Source of the DNA: Balneolales bacterium
Lineage (GTDB): Bacteria > Bacteroidota > Rhodothermia > Balneolales > HLUCCA01
Assembly: GCA_024711145.1 (NCBI GenBank)
Contig: JANJTJ010000001.1
Location: forward strand, 1 to 60,158
Reading direction: 5' to 3'
Length of the DNA: 60,158 bases
A model generated the notes under the pieces. The model searched no databases. It saw only the letters and a list, made by a program, of their open reading frames with translations, and was not told the DNA's origin. Below, in pieces: positions 1-5,301 of this stretch (positions are counted from its first letter, which is position 1; each line of letters starts with the position of its first letter). Made by a program: the position numbers and the translations under genes.

Positions 1-13
1 AAAGAAGCCCAGC

Positions 14-144
14 CACTAACAGCGGTTTGGCAAAAGTGGCGGTTCAGTGCTTCGTATGACAGTTTTTCGTAAATTTGAAGTGTGTGCTTCGTATGAACAT
101 TTGTGGTTAAATCGCCACCTTCGCCAAGCCGCAAAACGTTAGCG
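14..144 (+). repeat. attC-like integron recombination site (left)
   Basis: The site begins with CACTAAC (14-20) and ends with GTTAGCG (138-144), the complementary AAC/GTT core boxes expected of integron attC sites. Inside are two nested imperfect inverted arms: GCGGTTTGGC (22-31) against GCCAAGCCGC (123-132), and GTGGCGGTT (36-44) against AATCGCCAC (110-118). The centre holds a 13-bp direct repeat, GTGCTTCGTATGA, at 47-59 and 84-96. It matches the site at 2174-2268 in order and spacing of arms, but with compensating base changes. Bases 1-13 would be the tail of a preceding cassette. No integrase gene is in the window, so activity is inferred. Confidence 0.75.
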
Positions 145-192
145 GTCATTGTAGGACGACCAGAAACAACATCAAAAATTGACAAATAGAAT

Positions 193-675
193 ATGGCAAA
201 AAGTAAATTAATGGAGATGCACAATGTAGGCATTGTTGTAGAATCACTTGACAATGCAATTGCATTCTTCACAGAAATTGGGTTGACACTTGAAGGGCGA
301 ATGATGGTTGAAGGCGAATGGGCAGGACGAGTAACTGGGCTTGGTGACCAATCTGTTGAAGTAGCTATGATGGTTACTCCTGACGGACACTCCCGACTTG
401 AACATTCACAATTTCTGCGTCCGCAAACGATAGCTGACCACAGAACGAATCCTGTGAACTCACTTGGTTATCTAAGAGTAATGTTCAGGGTTGACAACCT
501 TGACGAGCTTTTGGGCAGACTTGAAAAACACGGTGCTAAAGTCGTAGATGAAGTTGTTCAGTTTGGTGACGTTTATAGACTCTGCTACATTCGTGGAGTA
601 GAGGGATTACTTATTGGTTTAGCTGAACAAATTGGTAGCAAAACAGCGACAGACATTTTAGAGGACAATAATTGA
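193..675 (+). CDS. VOC (glyoxalase/bleomycin-resistance fold) family protein
   Basis: A 160-residue protein with the beta-alpha-beta-beta-beta repeats of the vicinal oxygen chelate superfamily. The first half opens with HNVGIVVESLDNAIAFF and the second with LGYLRVMFRVDNLDELL, each with the metal-face strand pattern typical of glyoxalase I and dioxygenase relatives. Substrate cannot be told from sequence; cassette-borne VOC proteins often give resistance to a drug or electrophile by binding or conjugating it. The gene starts 49 bases after the left attC-like site, the usual position for a cassette's first gene, and has no Shine-Dalgarno but an A-rich leader. Its low GC and codon use differ from the chromosome to the right. 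Confidence 0.85.
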   Translation: MAKSKLMEMHNVGIVVESLDNAIAFFTEIGLTLEGRMMVEGEWAGRVTGLGDQSVEVAMMVTPDGHSRLEHSQFLRPQTIADHRTNPVNSLGYLRVMFRVDNLDELLGRLEKHGAKVVDEVVQFGDVYRLCYIRGVEGLLIGLAEQIGSKTATDILEDNN

Positions 676-752
676 AAAAACAACGACACTGCAATCATTA
701 AGCAGACACACTAAAATCATATTCAATCTGCTACAATTGAATGAATGAAAAC

Positions 753-1115
753 TTAGGCCTTTTTCAACACAGACTTTCTATGTTCTATTCCCCATTCTAT
801 CATTTTATCTAGGACTTCTGTGATTTGTTTTCCTGTTTCAGACAACTCATATTCAACAGATACAGGTGTTGTGTCATATACCGTTCTGACCAACACGCCA
901 TTTAATTCCAATTCTTTCAGTTCTTTGCTCAACATTCTGGGTGTAATTTTTGGAATATTGCGTTGAATATCGGTAAACCGTTTTTTACCAAACAGTATTG
1001 ATCCTAAGATTGGCAACTTCCATTTACCACTAATAACATTGAGCGTATCGTTGATGTTTAGCACATATTCAACGGGACAAGACTTAATCTCTTTTAAACT
1101 TAGCTGCTTTTTCAT
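753..1115 (-). CDS. HxlR-family winged-helix transcriptional regulator
   Basis: The 120-residue protein has the HxlR signature: a Cys near the N-terminus (CPVEYVLNIN), then the WKLPILGSILFGKKRFTDIQ helix and the ITPRMLSKELKELELNGVLVR recognition helix, then the wing with VEYELSETG. HxlR proteins are dimeric repressors or activators that sense aldehydes, quinones or disulfide stress through that N-terminal Cys. The gene is divergent from the qorB-like gene at 1212, and the 96-base interval holds a perfect dyad that is a likely operator, so auto-regulation and control of the neighbour are likely. E. coli ytfH/ytfG has the same layout. It is part of the AT-rich cassette. Confidence 0.9.
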   Translation of the reverse strand: MKKQLSLKEIKSCPVEYVLNINDTLNVISGKWKLPILGSILFGKKRFTDIQRNIPKITPRMLSKELKELELNGVLVRTVYDTTPVSVEYELSETGKQITEVLDKMIEWGIEHRKSVLKKA

Positions 1116-1131
1116 TTTCCTGACTTTTGTT

Positions 1132-1184
1132 ACTATACTTTAGTATAGCACTATACTTTAGGAAGCAAATATAGTGTATCTTTG
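1132..1184. promoter_or_regulatory. Divergent promoters and HxlR-type operator
   Basis: CTATAC (1133-1138) and GTATAG (1143-1148) form a perfect dyad with a 4-base spacer. The half-site context ACTATACTTTAG occurs twice in direct orientation, at 1132-1143 and 1150-1161, 18 bases apart. Two Bacteroidota-type -7 boxes flank them: TATCTTTG (1177-1184) for the qorB-like gene, and TATATTTG on the minus strand (1166-1173) for hxlR. The operator lies where bound regulator would block or contact polymerase in both directions. The pairing of this site with the adjacent HxlR protein is inferred from position. Confidence 0.7.
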
Positions 1185-1211
1185 CAATTCACAATTAAAA
1201 AAAATAAAAAA

Positions 1212-2084
1212 ATGATTTTAGTAACAGGAGCAACAGGACATTTTGGAAAGGCAACCATTGACTTTCTATTAAAAAAGGGTATTTCAGCAAACAGCATTTC
1301 GGCTTTAGTAAGAGATGAGGCGAAAGCGGAAGACTTGAAAACAAAAGGCATTAACTTAAAAATTGGCGATTACGACAATTACGCTTCATTGGTAGAAGCA
1401 TTTAAAGGCGTTGACAAGTTGTTATTGGTTTCAAGTTCTGATGTTGTTAACCGTGGACAACAACACGAGAATGCAGTGAAGGCTGCTAAAGAAGCAGGTG
1501 TAAAACATATATTTTATACCAGTTTTGAGCGAAAAAACGATACCGAAACTTCACCTATTTACTTTCTTGCAAAATCGCATATCGACACAGAAAACCTAAT
1601 CAAGGCAAGTGGAATGACTTACACCATTTTTAAAAACAATCTTTATCTTGATGTGTTACCGATGTTTTTTGGAGAACAAGTTTTAACAACAGGTATATTT
1701 TTACCAGCAGGAGAGACAAAATCGGCTTTTGCTTTGCGTAATGATATGGCTGAAGCTACTGCCAGTGTATTGACAAGCGAAGGACACGAAAACAAAGCAT
1801 ATTCTTTAAGCAATACCGAAAGTGTATCGATACAAGAAATTGCTGAAGATTTAAGTGAAATAGTTGGTAAACAAATCAATTATGTAAGCCCGCCTAAAGA
1901 TATTTACGTGAAAACATTAACAGAAGCAGGCGTTCCAGCAGAATATGTTGGAATGTTTGCAGGTTTTGCCGAGGCTATTAAGCAAGGGGAATATTCAACT
2001 GAAAAAACAGATTTAGAAAATCTTTTAGGCAGAAAGCCAACGACAACAAAAGACTTCCTGAAAGTAGTTTACGCATCTAAATAA
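1212..2084 (+). CDS. QorB/YtfG-like NAD(P)-binding quinone oxidoreductase (NmrA family)
   Basis: The 290-residue protein starts with the Rossmann motif MILVTGATGHFGK and follows E. coli QOR2 (YtfG, 286 residues) along its length: LLLVSSSDV, QHENAVKAAKEAGVKHIFYTS, then a C-terminal LGRKPTTTKDFL. QOR2 reduces quinones with NADPH; the same atypical short-chain fold also includes redox sensors such as NmrA. I chose ATG 1212 because it begins the Rossmann strand and follows an A-rich leader. An upstream TTG at 1182 is in frame but lies inside the promoter -7 box. Divergent from hxlR, which probably controls it in response to an electrophile or quinone. Confidence 0.88.
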   Translation: MILVTGATGHFGKATIDFLLKKGISANSISALVRDEAKAEDLKTKGINLKIGDYDNYASLVEAFKGVDKLLLVSSSDVVNRGQQHENAVKAAKEAGVKHIFYTSFERKNDTETSPIYFLAKSHIDTENLIKASGMTYTIFKNNLYLDVLPMFFGEQVLTTGIFLPAGETKSAFALRNDMAEATASVLTSEGHENKAYSLSNTESVSIQEIAEDLSEIVGKQINYVSPPKDIYVKTLTEAGVPAEYVGMFAGFAEAIKQGEYSTEKTDLENLLGRKPTTTKDFLKVVYASK

Positions 2085-2108
2085 TATCTTTAAATTATGT
2101 TTTTTATA

Positions 2109-2143
2109 GCGGACAGTTTTAGAACTGTTCGCTATTTTTTTTA
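2109..2143 (+). terminator. Intrinsic terminator after the qorB-like gene
   Basis: An 11-bp stem (AGCGGACAGTT with AACTGTTCGCT, one G-U pair) closes a TTAG loop and is followed by A and seven T. It lies 24 bases past the stop codon and before the right attC-like site, so the cassette ends its own transcript. Confidence 0.88.
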
Positions 2144-2173
2144 TTCTACAACTCGACAGACAAAAACGCCAGC

Positions 2174-2268
2174 AGGTAACAGCAGTTTGGCAAAATGGCG
2201 GGTTCAGTGCTAAATTGAAAGTAAGTGCTTCAAAATCCGCCACTTAGCCAAGCTGCAAACCGTTAGCG
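2174..2268 (+). repeat. attC-like integron recombination site (right, array end)
   Basis: Core boxes are AGGTAAC (2174-2180) and GTTAGCG (2262-2268). The arms are GCAGTTTGGC (2182-2191) against GCCAAGCTGC (2247-2256) and TGGCGGGTT (2196-2204) against AATCCGCCA (2234-2242). Compared with the left site, a G to A change in one arm is matched by C to T in its partner, so the hairpin rather than the primary sequence is conserved. The site is 95 bases against 131 on the left; the centre is shorter. Composition becomes chromosomal immediately after it, so it looks like the last attC of an array. Confidence 0.75.
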
Positions 2269-2311
2269 CACCCACACCCTTACATTGAAGGCCTCACTAG
2301 AAGGCACGCTC

Positions 2312-2779
2312 ATGACTGCTCAAAAAATCACACCGTCGATCTGGGTTGAAACAACGGATGCCAAAGCGGTAGCCGATTATTATCTCTCGATATTTGCGGA
2401 TGGCAGGCTCAAGGAACACCATGCGTACACGAATCCGCCGGAAGCGGGTGGCGGGGCCTTCGAAACGGCGATCATCGAAATCGCCGGCATGGAATTGGGC
2501 ATTCTGGCGGCGGGTCCGTTTCAGAAGTTCAACGAGTCGGTCTCATTCGTCATCAACACGAAGGACCAGGCCGAAACGGATTATTTTTGGAATGCCCTGA
2601 CGGAAAACGGGGGCCAGGAAGGTTCTTGCGGATGGTGCACCGACAAATATGGACTGTCGTGGCAGGTGGTTCCGGTCGACTATTTTGCCCTGATCAACCA
2701 CGCCGACCCGAAGGTTCGGGAAAAGGCCATGAAGAACACGTTGCAGCAGAAGAAGATCATTCTGGATGAACTGAAATAG
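2312..2779 (+). CDS. PhnB-like VOC family protein
   Basis: A 155-residue single-domain protein of the PhnB/3-demethylubiquinone methyltransferase-like branch of the VOC fold. Hallmarks are the N-terminal TPSIWVETTDAKAVADYYLSIF, the central METGI-like strand MELGILAAGPFQKFNESVSF, and the C-terminal WCTDKYGLSWQVVP. Metal ligands and substrate are not clear. I took ATG 2312 rather than the upstream TTG at 2285, because family members start just before this strand and AAGG precedes it. It has chromosomal GC content, so I place it outside the cassette, although it begins only 43 bases past the attC-like site. It is 7 bases from the next gene and probably co-transcribed. Confidence 0.83.
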   Translation: MTAQKITPSIWVETTDAKAVADYYLSIFADGRLKEHHAYTNPPEAGGGAFETAIIEIAGMELGILAAGPFQKFNESVSFVINTKDQAETDYFWNALTENGGQEGSCGWCTDKYGLSWQVVPVDYFALINHADPKVREKAMKNTLQQKKIILDELK

Positions 2780-2786
2780 GTCACGG

Positions 2787-3212
2787 ATGCACGCCAAAGC
2801 CGCCATACAGATCCGCAAGCCGATCGAAGAGGTATTCGAAGGCATCGTGGATCCGTCCATCCTCACCCGGTACTTCATATCGGAGAGCGACGGCCGCCTG
2901 GAGTCGGGGGTCACGCGCATGTGGGCGTTTCCCGAATTCGAAGGGGCGTTTCCGGTAGAGGTTGTGCGCGTGGAGGCGCCGCATACCATCGAATTCGTGT
3001 GGGACTCGGAAACGGTGGTCACCATCACCTTGGAAGCGCGCCCCGATGCCGGAACCGTGGTTCGGGTGGTGGAAGACGGCAAACCCGACACCCCCGAAGC
3101 CATCGAGTGGGCCATCGGCACCACCGAGGGTTGGGCCAACTTCCTGGCCTGCATGAAAGCCCACCTGGAATACGGCATCAACCTGCGCGCCGGCGCCTTC
3201 GACTTCCGCTAA
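2787..3212 (+). CDS. SRPBCC/AHSA1-like ligand-binding domain protein
   Basis: The 141-residue protein resembles activator-of-Hsp90 ATPase homologue 1 (AHSA1)-like members of the START/Bet v1 superfamily. It opens with AAIQIRKPIEEVFEGIVDPSILTRYF, the usual first strand and helix, and ends with the long helix EGWANFLACMKAHLEYG that lids the cavity. Such proteins bind hydrophobic ligands, and small stand-alone ones are often annotated as ATPase or polyketide cyclase without proof. Seven bases separate it from the VOC gene upstream; pairs of these two families are frequent in environmental bacteria. Function unknown. Confidence 0.82.
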   Translation: MHAKAAIQIRKPIEEVFEGIVDPSILTRYFISESDGRLESGVTRMWAFPEFEGAFPVEVVRVEAPHTIEFVWDSETVVTITLEARPDAGTVVRVVEDGKPDTPEAIEWAIGTTEGWANFLACMKAHLEYGINLRAGAFDFR

Positions 3213-3240
3213 CCGTCTCCCGTTACCCGTCTCCCGTTAC
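3213..3240. repeat. Perfect 14-bp tandem duplication
   Basis: CCGTCTCCCGTTAC occurs twice head to tail (3213-3226 and 3227-3240) in the short gap between the convergent SRPBCC and uvrB stop codons. No hairpin with a T-run is visible here, so it is not an obvious terminator. Confidence 0.9.
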
Positions 3241-3243
3241 TCC

Positions 3244-5301
3244 CTACCTCAACTCCCGCTCGAGTACTTCGATCTGGTCGCGGATACGGGCGGCTTCCTC
3301 GTATTCCAGGTTGCGGGCCGCTGTGAGCATGGCCGTGCGCAGGTGCTCGAGCAAGGCGTCTTTGTCGTCGAAGACCACTTCCTGCATGGCCGGGTTGGGT
3401 TTGTACCGCAGCCCGTCGTCGGCCGCCCGCACGTAGCTGAGCGCGGGGGAGTTGTCGCCGTAATCGAAGGGTTTGTCGAGGTCGATTTTCTGGGTGCTGA
3501 TGAGGGCCGGATCGACCAGGGGCTTGAGCTCCTTGACGATGGTCTGTGGCGTGATGCCGTGCTCGAGGTTATACGCCCGCTGGATCTCGCGCCGACGGTC
3601 GGTTTCTTCGATCACTTTCCGCATGCTGTCGGTCACTTTGTCGGCATAGAGGATGGCCAGGCCGTCCGCGTTCCGCGCCGCCCGCCCCGTGATCTGCATG
3701 AGGCTGGTCTGGCTCCGAAGGAAGCCCTCTTTGTCGGCGTCGAGCACCGCTACCAGGCTCAGTTCGGGGATGTCTATGCCTTCGCGCAGCAGGTTGATGC
3801 CTACGAGCACGTCGAAGTCGCCCCGCCGGAACCGGTACAGGATTTCGATGCGCTCGATGGCGTCCAGGTCGCTGTGCATGTAGGCCGCCCGGATGCCCAG
3901 ATTCCGAAGGTATTCGCTCAACTCCTCGCTCATGCGTTTGGTGAGGGTGAGCGCCAATACCCGCTCCCGCTTTTCGATGCGGATGCGGATTTCTTCGATG
4001 AGGTCGTCGACCTGGTTCTTGAGGGGACGCACCTCGATGCGGGGTTCCATGAGTCCCGTGGGGCGGATGATCTGCTCTACGAAGGCGCCTTCAGACTTCA
4101 CCAATTCGTAGTCGGCGGGGGTGGCGCTCACGAAAATGCCCTGGGGCACCAGGCCTTCCCATTCTTCGAAGGTGAGGGGGCGGTTGTCCATGGCCGAGGG
4201 CAGGCGGAATCCGTGTTCCACCAGGGCCAGTTTGCGGCTGCGGTCGCCCCCGTACATGGCCCCGATCTGCGGTATGGTCTGGTGGCTTTCGTCCACCACC
4301 ACGAGGAAATCCTCGGGGAAATAATCCATGAGGCAGTAGGGACGCTCCCCGGGCTTGCGGGCGGCCAGGTACCGCGAGTAGTTCTCGATGCCGGAGCAGT
4401 ACCCGATTTCCTGGATCATCTCCAGATCGAACTGGGTGCGTTGCTCCAGGCGGGCCGCTTCCAGGAATTTCTCTTCTTCGCGGAGCTGTTCCAGGCGCTG
4501 GTTCAGCTCGTTGCGGATGAGGATGATGGATTCGTCGAGGCGGGCCTTGGTGGTGACGTAATGGCTGGCCGGATAGATCTGGAACTGCTGTACCCGCTCG
4601 CGTTCCTTGCCGGTATCCGGGTCGAAGAGGGTCATCTTCTCGATTTCGTCGCCCCAGAACTGGATGCGCAACGCGTACTCGGAATAGGCCGGTACCAGGT
4701 CCACCACGTCGCCCCGCACCCGGAAGGTGCTGCGCGAGAATTCAGCGTCGTTGCGGGTGTAGTGCAGGTCCACCAGGTCGTAGAGCAGCTTGGACCGGCT
4801 GATGTGCTTGCCCTCGTGCAGGCTGATGACCATGGCCGCGTATTCGCTGGGCGACCCGATGCCATAGATGCAACTTACGCTTGATACGATGATGACATCG
4901 CGCCGGCCGGAAAGCATGCTGCTGGTGGCCCGCAGGCGCAGGCGCTGGATCTCTTCGTTGATGGCCAGGTCTTTTTCGATGTACTTGTCCTGGGCCACCA
5001 TGTAGGCCTCGGGCTGGTAGTAATCGTAATAGCTGATGAAGAACTCCACAGCCGCATCGGGGAAGAAATCGCTCAACTCCCGATACAACTGGGCCGCCAG
5101 GGTCTTGTTATGCGACATCACCAGGGTGGGGCGGTTCACCTGTTGGATCACTTCGGCCACGGTGCGGGTCTTGCCCGAGCCGGTAATGCCTAATAGGGTT
5201 TGAAAACGCACCCCCGCCTTCAGACCGGAAACCAGGGCTTCTATGGCTTTGGGTTGGTCCCCGGCGGGTTGATAGGGCGATACGAGGCGGAAATCGGACA
5301 T
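3244..5301 (-). CDS. uvrB: Excinuclease ABC subunit UvrB
   Basis: UvrB is the damage-verifying helicase-like subunit of nucleotide excision repair, loaded by UvrA and nicked by UvrC. The 685-residue product has all expected parts: PYQPAGDQPKAI at the N-terminus, Walker A GITGSGKT near residue 40, the beta-hairpin YYDYYQPEAY, helicase motif DESH, motif VI region QITGRAARN, and a C-terminal UVR domain (AARNLEYEEAARIRDQI) that binds UvrC. Length is normal. The start ATG lies five bases after the stop of the PIN toxin gene and has no clear Shine-Dalgarno, so translation may depend on ribosomes finishing the toxin gene. No LexA-like box was seen upstream. Confidence 0.98.
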   Translation of the reverse strand: MSDFRLVSPYQPAGDQPKAIEALVSGLKAGVRFQTLLGITGSGKTRTVAEVIQQVNRPTLVMSHNKTLAAQLYRELSDFFPDAAVEFFISYYDYYQPEAYMVAQDKYIEKDLAINEEIQRLRLRATSSMLSGRRDVIIVSSVSCIYGIGSPSEYAAMVISLHEGKHISRSKLLYDLVDLHYTRNDAEFSRSTFRVRGDVVDLVPAYSEYALRIQFWGDEIEKMTLFDPDTGKERERVQQFQIYPASHYVTTKARLDESIILIRNELNQRLEQLREEEKFLEAARLEQRTQFDLEMIQEIGYCSGIENYSRYLAARKPGERPYCLMDYFPEDFLVVVDESHQTIPQIGAMYGGDRSRKLALVEHGFRLPSAMDNRPLTFEEWEGLVPQGIFVSATPADYELVKSEGAFVEQIIRPTGLMEPRIEVRPLKNQVDDLIEEIRIRIEKRERVLALTLTKRMSEELSEYLRNLGIRAAYMHSDLDAIERIEILYRFRRGDFDVLVGINLLREGIDIPELSLVAVLDADKEGFLRSQTSLMQITGRAARNADGLAILYADKVTDSMRKVIEETDRRREIQRAYNLEHGITPQTIVKELKPLVDPALISTQKIDLDKPFDYGDNSPALSYVRAADDGLRYKPNPAMQEVVFDDKDALLEHLRTAMLTAARNLEYEEAARIRDQIEVLERELR

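Follow-up and report, generated by a model that had tools for sequence, protein, structure and literature searches.

The first 2,268 nt of the window (the whole stretch analysed, 60,158 nt of contig JANJTJ010000001.1 from a Balneolales bacterium) very probably belong to an integron-like array, as its 3′ end; the assembly contains no recombinase for this array, which would use the family mechanism proposed below. With considerably less confidence, we lean towards a second, phylum-wide integron lineage, in which the recombinase is sister to IntI and predates the I2 insertion (or has lost it), and in which the hairpin sites lack extrahelical bases. In complete relatives, sites of this kind separate the cassettes, most of them with a single gene, of arrays that follow a dedicated tyrosine recombinase.

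A preliminary description of this DNA had pointed to two sites about 2.1 kb apart with shared cores, and both are present (Table 1). The exact position of strand exchange within GTTA, taken from what is known of integrons, would be between G138 and T139 in site A, and probably between G2262 and T2263 in site B. The NmrA-like gene is divergent from the HxlR gene and has an alternative TTG start at 1182. An Rfam scan of positions 1–4000 at a permissive threshold returned chance matches only, and no attC family. When the window cassettes were compared at the DNA level with the retrieved loci, essentially just the sites and their edges aligned.

Table 1 Features at the left end of the window, with the evidence for each
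Feature	Position	Strand	Evidence or remark
End of preceding cassette, R'' arm GCCCAGCCAC	7..16	+	Same end in cassettes of L070, L117 and L139
attC-like site A, YAAC..GTTA hairpin, 125 nt	17..141	+	CM R1 106.2 bits, E 1.4e-22
Core GTTA of site A	138..141	+	Homology of relatives breaks at CGTTA
Cassette gene, glyoxalase/VOC-fold protein, 160 aa	193..675	+	Pfam Glyoxalase_4 2.4e-10
HxlR-type transcriptional regulator, 120 aa	753..1115	-	Pfam HxlR 3.3e-29
NmrA-like NAD(P)-binding protein, 290 aa	1212..2084	+	Pfam NmrA 1.8e-31
Terminator-like hairpin and T-run 3′ of the NmrA gene	2107..2143	+	Sequence; hairpin seen in a below-threshold Rfam alignment
attC-like site B, final site of the array; 89 nt with a short loop	2177..2265	+	CM R1 85.6 bits, E 1.6e-17
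Core GTTA of site B, boundary of array and right flank	2262..2265	+	Sequence, GC step, homology breaks
3-demethylubiquinone-9 3-methyltransferase-fold gene, GC-richer flank	2285..2779	+	Pfam 1.6e-31
AHSA1/START-like protein gene	2787..3212	+	Pfam; absent beside uvrB in relatives
uvrB	3244..5301	-	First gene with conserved synteny in relatives; adjoins the 5951-7129 gene

The array stretch has a GC content of 32–46%, and GC-rich DNA starts right after site B. The preliminary description took this step as the point at which foreign, AT-rich DNA meets the chromosome; the step is there, but conserved synteny begins further right. In same-family relatives, uvrB and its upstream neighbour are kept; the DNA downstream of uvrB varies between genera, and the 3-demethylubiquinone-9 and AHSA1 genes are absent from this position in three of these relatives. 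Because DNA just right of site B is also missing next to uvrB in relatives, gene order places the boundary of conserved synteny at uvrB (3244) rather than at 2268, and positions 1–3212 are a variable region. The proposed comparison of close strains at 2268 gave no clean orthologous empty site, since the sequence downstream of uvrB differs between genera.

Common to sites A and B are the YAAC...GTTA ends, the arm GCNGTTTGGC/GCCAAGCNGC and, further in, a GC-rich arm. The arm bases differ between the two sites yet pairing is kept; for example, position 8 has a G-C pair in one site and an A-T pair in the other. Fold z-scores of single sites were modest (−1.0 to −2.5), and significance therefore rests on the site family in relatives. 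We built a covariance model from 50 relatives' sites, chosen by sequence similarity, with a training set that includes A, B and the second of two sites on another contig of this genome (site C, C94:1852–1977), the first (C94:268–393) lying outside it. Among the 50 aligned sites, which are diverse, two-sided compensatory changes occur at 14 of 24 pairs and amount to 143 cells, compared with 37.8 ± 4.6 in shuffles, none of 500 shuffles being as high. One-sided changes account for about 2 of 1199 cells, which leaves almost no G-U path. The paired fraction, 72.3% in shuffled alignments, reaches 87.2% in the real one and falls to about 36% when the partner is slid by one column. The covariation originally described for the arms of A and B is real.

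The family hairpins share further features: R''/R' cores with the GTT crossover triplet, a conserved T.G pair (A.C on the bottom strand), and an unpaired, asymmetric central spacer between the R and L boxes, with 1 nt (A) on one side and about 5 nt (NNNAC) on the other. The R''-L'' arm has no insertion column in the 50 aligned sites, and so is without extrahelical bases there; the opposite arm carries an extra base in some of them. Folded with DNA parameters, the bottom strand was more stable than the top strand in 119 of 125 cases, and the circular form was more stable than the in-array form in all 125. About eight model hits in the arrays of G110 and G432 (L197, L198 and L217) have the left flank ATTGTAAACTTAAG rather than NNNNNNYAAC, and are either a separate repeated element inside arrays or a site variant with another end.

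In the arrays of relatives, the sites lie between genes in a single orientation, with a median spacing of 760 bp, and the intervals follow the integron rule by which a cassette circle pairs its own two ends. In 126 of 147 intervals, the first 10 nt of a cassette (GTTANNNNNN) form the reverse complement of the 10 nt that end it, scored on the 6 bases past GTTA with a match defined as at least 5 of 6; shuffled pairs would give 7.8 matches, and 9 of 175 sites have flanks that match each other. The complementarity is visible by eye in L049, L050, L071 and L135. Beyond 10 nt, position 11 pairs in 1% of intervals and positions 12–14 in 77–81%, position 11 being a conserved mismatch inside a longer stem. 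In arrays from the host's order (G010:C33 and G016:C44; L322–L324), the rule is obeyed less often.

Comparisons between cassettes also reveal where homology breaks. Where two cassettes share the end of the upstream gene and differ in downstream DNA, the sites are 93% identical (6 pairs) and homology extends no further than GTTA; if instead they share a downstream start, site identity is 65% (4 pairs), with a background of 60%, and homology begins at GTTA. These sequence comparisons show each site travelling with the gene upstream of it, with exchange at GTTA. The longest ORF is in the sense orientation in 92 of 106 intact cassettes and antisense in 8, with none in the other 6. A complementary start predicted from the end of the first cassette was found about 100 nt past the recombinase gene in most arrays. 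The motif where the first cassette starts is TATAAACRA/GTT (the slash marking the start), with TAT present in 15 of 15, and we take this motif, next to the recombinase gene in relatives, to be an attI-like site. We conclude that the organisation of sites and cassettes, as read from these arrays, follows integron logic. Own-end complementarity, crossover at GTTA, the attI-like site and the adjacent recombinase in relatives bear out the preliminary reading of the window as an integron-like array end with folded single-strand sites.

In this genome, the covariance model detects four sites and no more: A, B and the two on C94, of which the first scores 60.6 bits. Both the window contig (C56) and C94 start within an array and continue, from a GTTA core, into GC-rich DNA. 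On C94, the interval 393–1852 obeys the start/end rule and is an intact cassette with three genes. The interval between A and B breaks the rule, its start (GTTAGCGGTC) and end (CCAGCAGGTAAC) matching at 2 of 6 positions, and we rejected A–B as a single intact cassette because these ends do not pair. A site was therefore probably lost between fused cassettes within A–B, which holds the glyoxalase, HxlR and NmrA genes. A search by eye for a remnant site near 665–735 gave nothing convincing. There is no array recombinase on the window contig or elsewhere in the assembly, which has two Xer-like genes only; hence, of the integrase and further attC sites that the preliminary description led us to look for, the integrase is absent from the assembly but two further sites are present on C94, so that the preliminary reading is not refuted on this point. 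The recombinase may lie on missing sequence left of C56 and C94, or may have been lost, or the cassettes may have come from another Bacteroidota.

The assembly is a MAG of 138 contigs in which both array stretches are at contig ends, and this, together with the sharp GC step, would fit an assembly chimera or contaminant, in which a Flavobacterium-like array had been misjoined to the host contig near 2268. Site A also has exact sequence matches among the sites of other Bacteroidota genomes. L070 (Flavobacterium denitrificans), L117 and L139, which carry the site-A cassette end, have the left flank AAGCCCAGCCAC and a site 96–100% identical, with different DNA after GTTA. In addition, a strict sequence pattern matched none of 60 relatives. 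However, absence from relatives, as read from the strict pattern, was overturned by the covariance model, which finds sites in 9 of 11 same-family or same-order relatives, some with recombinases. Moreover, two independent contigs share the design and have their joins at the GTTA crossover, and the arms and loops of sites B and C differ in sequence from those elsewhere. We consider a chimera rather unlikely, and the joins to GC-rich DNA in the MAG are probably real; the family-level finding would stand regardless.

Sites of the family are widespread in Bacteroidota. At E ≤ 1e-6, 148 of the 396 genomes sampled have a site, as do 83 of the 172 genera. The strict pattern is found in at least 119 stretches of the species-wide collection; among the matches listed, all are from Bacteroidota in the broad sense, including Flavobacterium, Chitinophagales, Cytophagales, Bacteroidales and Ignavibacteriales. 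Arrays with recombinases are found in the host's own order (G010 and G016). Three IMG/VR viral contigs (L023, L024 and L025) carry one family site, which in L024 is beside a frame that by eye resembles a replicative helicase; this is possibly a phage-borne cassette site. The open literature on integrons of Bacteroidota and Flavobacterium contained no description of these arrays (closed-access papers and preprints were outside the scope of this search).

Array-bearing genomes encode a tyrosine recombinase, mostly of about 345–440 aa. Its gene adjoins the array in about 20 genomes, mostly reading towards the array; in G010, G016 and L222/L223 it is divergent from the array, as in classical integrons. 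In a tree of 52 sequences, 4 of them IntI, with an assumed root, 22 array recombinases form one group (support 100/99) that is joined to IntI against XerA/C/D (100/98). By alignment, the I2 insertion (~41 aa) is present in 0 of 22. The spacing from the KxKDR box to the RH box is 60–61 aa in the 20 array recombinases in which the motifs were located, 102 in the 4 IntI and 62–72 in most Xer proteins, and a C-terminal SP(F/L)D is found in all 22 and in IntI, and in no XerC/D/A. We conclude that the array recombinases, judged by these motifs and the tree, form a clade beside IntI that is neither IntI nor Xer.

An additional N-terminal domain of about 70 aa is usual in array recombinases. This small domain is predicted to have a beta-beta-alpha-beta-beta-alpha fold, and one such region searched against PDB sequences had no match; a known arm-binding or HARP-like domain was considered, but the one match was a sub-threshold hit to DUF5710. 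A predicted structure (pTM 0.52) matched the folds of XerA and IntI, with a low global TM, and the nearest solved structures are XerA (5HXY/4A8E) and an integron integrase (2A3V). Individual recombinases depart from the common form. L208 (G091:C65) encodes a 582 aa recombinase with three tandem N-terminal WSxxxKxWxLP-like modules, the module weakly resembling DUF5710; in G010:C33 and G016:C44 (L322–L324), the recombinase is shorter and divergent, and ends in SPIENL; and the Flavobacterium covae chromosome (L222 and L223) has a divergent array recombinase in two near-identical copies, each with its own sites. L227 and L228 (G075:C32 and G065:C5) come from genomes that encode, in addition to the I2-less recombinase, a classical IntI of full length (430 bits). 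An integron-like subgroup in which the CAT insertion is 'not fully conserved' has been described (PMC8138268), and possibly includes the array-recombinase lineage.

These recombinases match the integron integrase profile TIGR02249 at ~190–212 bits, and a few integrons have been reported in Bacteroidota (PMC9024848, PMC2426708, PMC8618304); one survey of Bacteroidetes initially found In0 elements only and afterwards a complete integron in a single strain of Salinibacter (PMC9024848). The arrays could thus be classical integrons, with IntI and canonical attC, that have merely diverged, and all the organisational features are indeed present. As in class 1 integrons and Vibrio superintegrons, a cassette is a gene with a downstream hairpin site, the crossover is in a GTT core, attI is beside the recombinase, and folding favours the bottom strand; the own-end complementarity seen here is shared with attC, for which 9–11 nt has been reported (PMC2727003). 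However, the TIGR02249 scores are under the cut-off of 265, and the array recombinases differ from IntI in lacking I2, in usually having the N-terminal domain, and in mostly reading towards the array. The family sites differ from attC in having the T.G pair and the 1-versus-5-nt spacer instead of R''-L'' extrahelical bases, and the attC sites of class 1 integrons are not recognised by the covariance model. Furthermore, the true IntI loci of G065 and G075 are without family sites in the 7.6–13 kb examined. We therefore regard a merely divergent classical integron as very improbable, and the term integron attC used in the preliminary description as apt for the organisation but not for a classical IntI/attC pair. 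Dispersed hairpin repeats (REP/RAYT-like or transcription terminators) with no cassette function would also put strong stems into intergenic DNA, but the uniform orientation within each array, the single site for each gene, crossover at GTTA and an adjoining recombinase and attI-like site all argue against them, and the cassette-specific start/end complementarity effectively refutes them.

We propose that the tyrosine recombinase captures circular cassettes at the attI-like site beside its own gene, where strand exchange would take place. In the circle, the first 10 nt of the cassette would anneal to the last 10 nt, extending the hairpin, mainly on the bottom strand. Exchange takes place at GTTA, as the homology break points show, and the genes have the orientation of the sites. 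Strand choice probably depends instead on the conserved mismatch and the asymmetric spacer. That the neighbouring recombinase catalyses cassette recombination is suggested by gene arrangement, and use of the bottom single strand by the modelled folding. The absence of I2 may be ancestral rather than a loss.

This mechanism has parallels in other systems. Like a CALIN, the window has two sites 2.0 kb apart and no recombinase on the contig; unlike in a CALIN, the sites belong to a Bacteroidota family, and the contig ends inside the array, so that a recombinase may lie beyond it. The array recombinases share a core fold with XerA, XerC and XerD, but are separated from them in the tree and by the C-terminal motif. 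Integration of the CTXphi type at dif (IMEX) relies on host XerCD, without I2, and uses a folded single-strand site without extrahelical bases (PMC4792948), whereas in the Bacteroidota family the recombinase is a dedicated one and the gene cassettes form arrays.

Integrons have been thought to need the IntI-specific I2 to read the extrahelical bases of attC, and the question of how I2 and attC could each have originated before the other existed is a stated paradox (PMC4792948). A system with neither I2 nor extrahelical bases is, from its sequences, a candidate answer to this paradox, and a natural intermediate if active. If the proposed lineage is real, it would be a living intermediate in which folded single-strand cassette recombination proceeds without I2, resolving the chicken-and-egg problem. 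A natural system with integron logic that lacks both elements makes the I2/attC question testable. Tools that require IntI and canonical attC are expected to miss these arrays, which, given their presence in more than a third of the sampled Bacteroidota genomes, would add a large pool of mobile gene cassettes that has so far gone mostly unseen.
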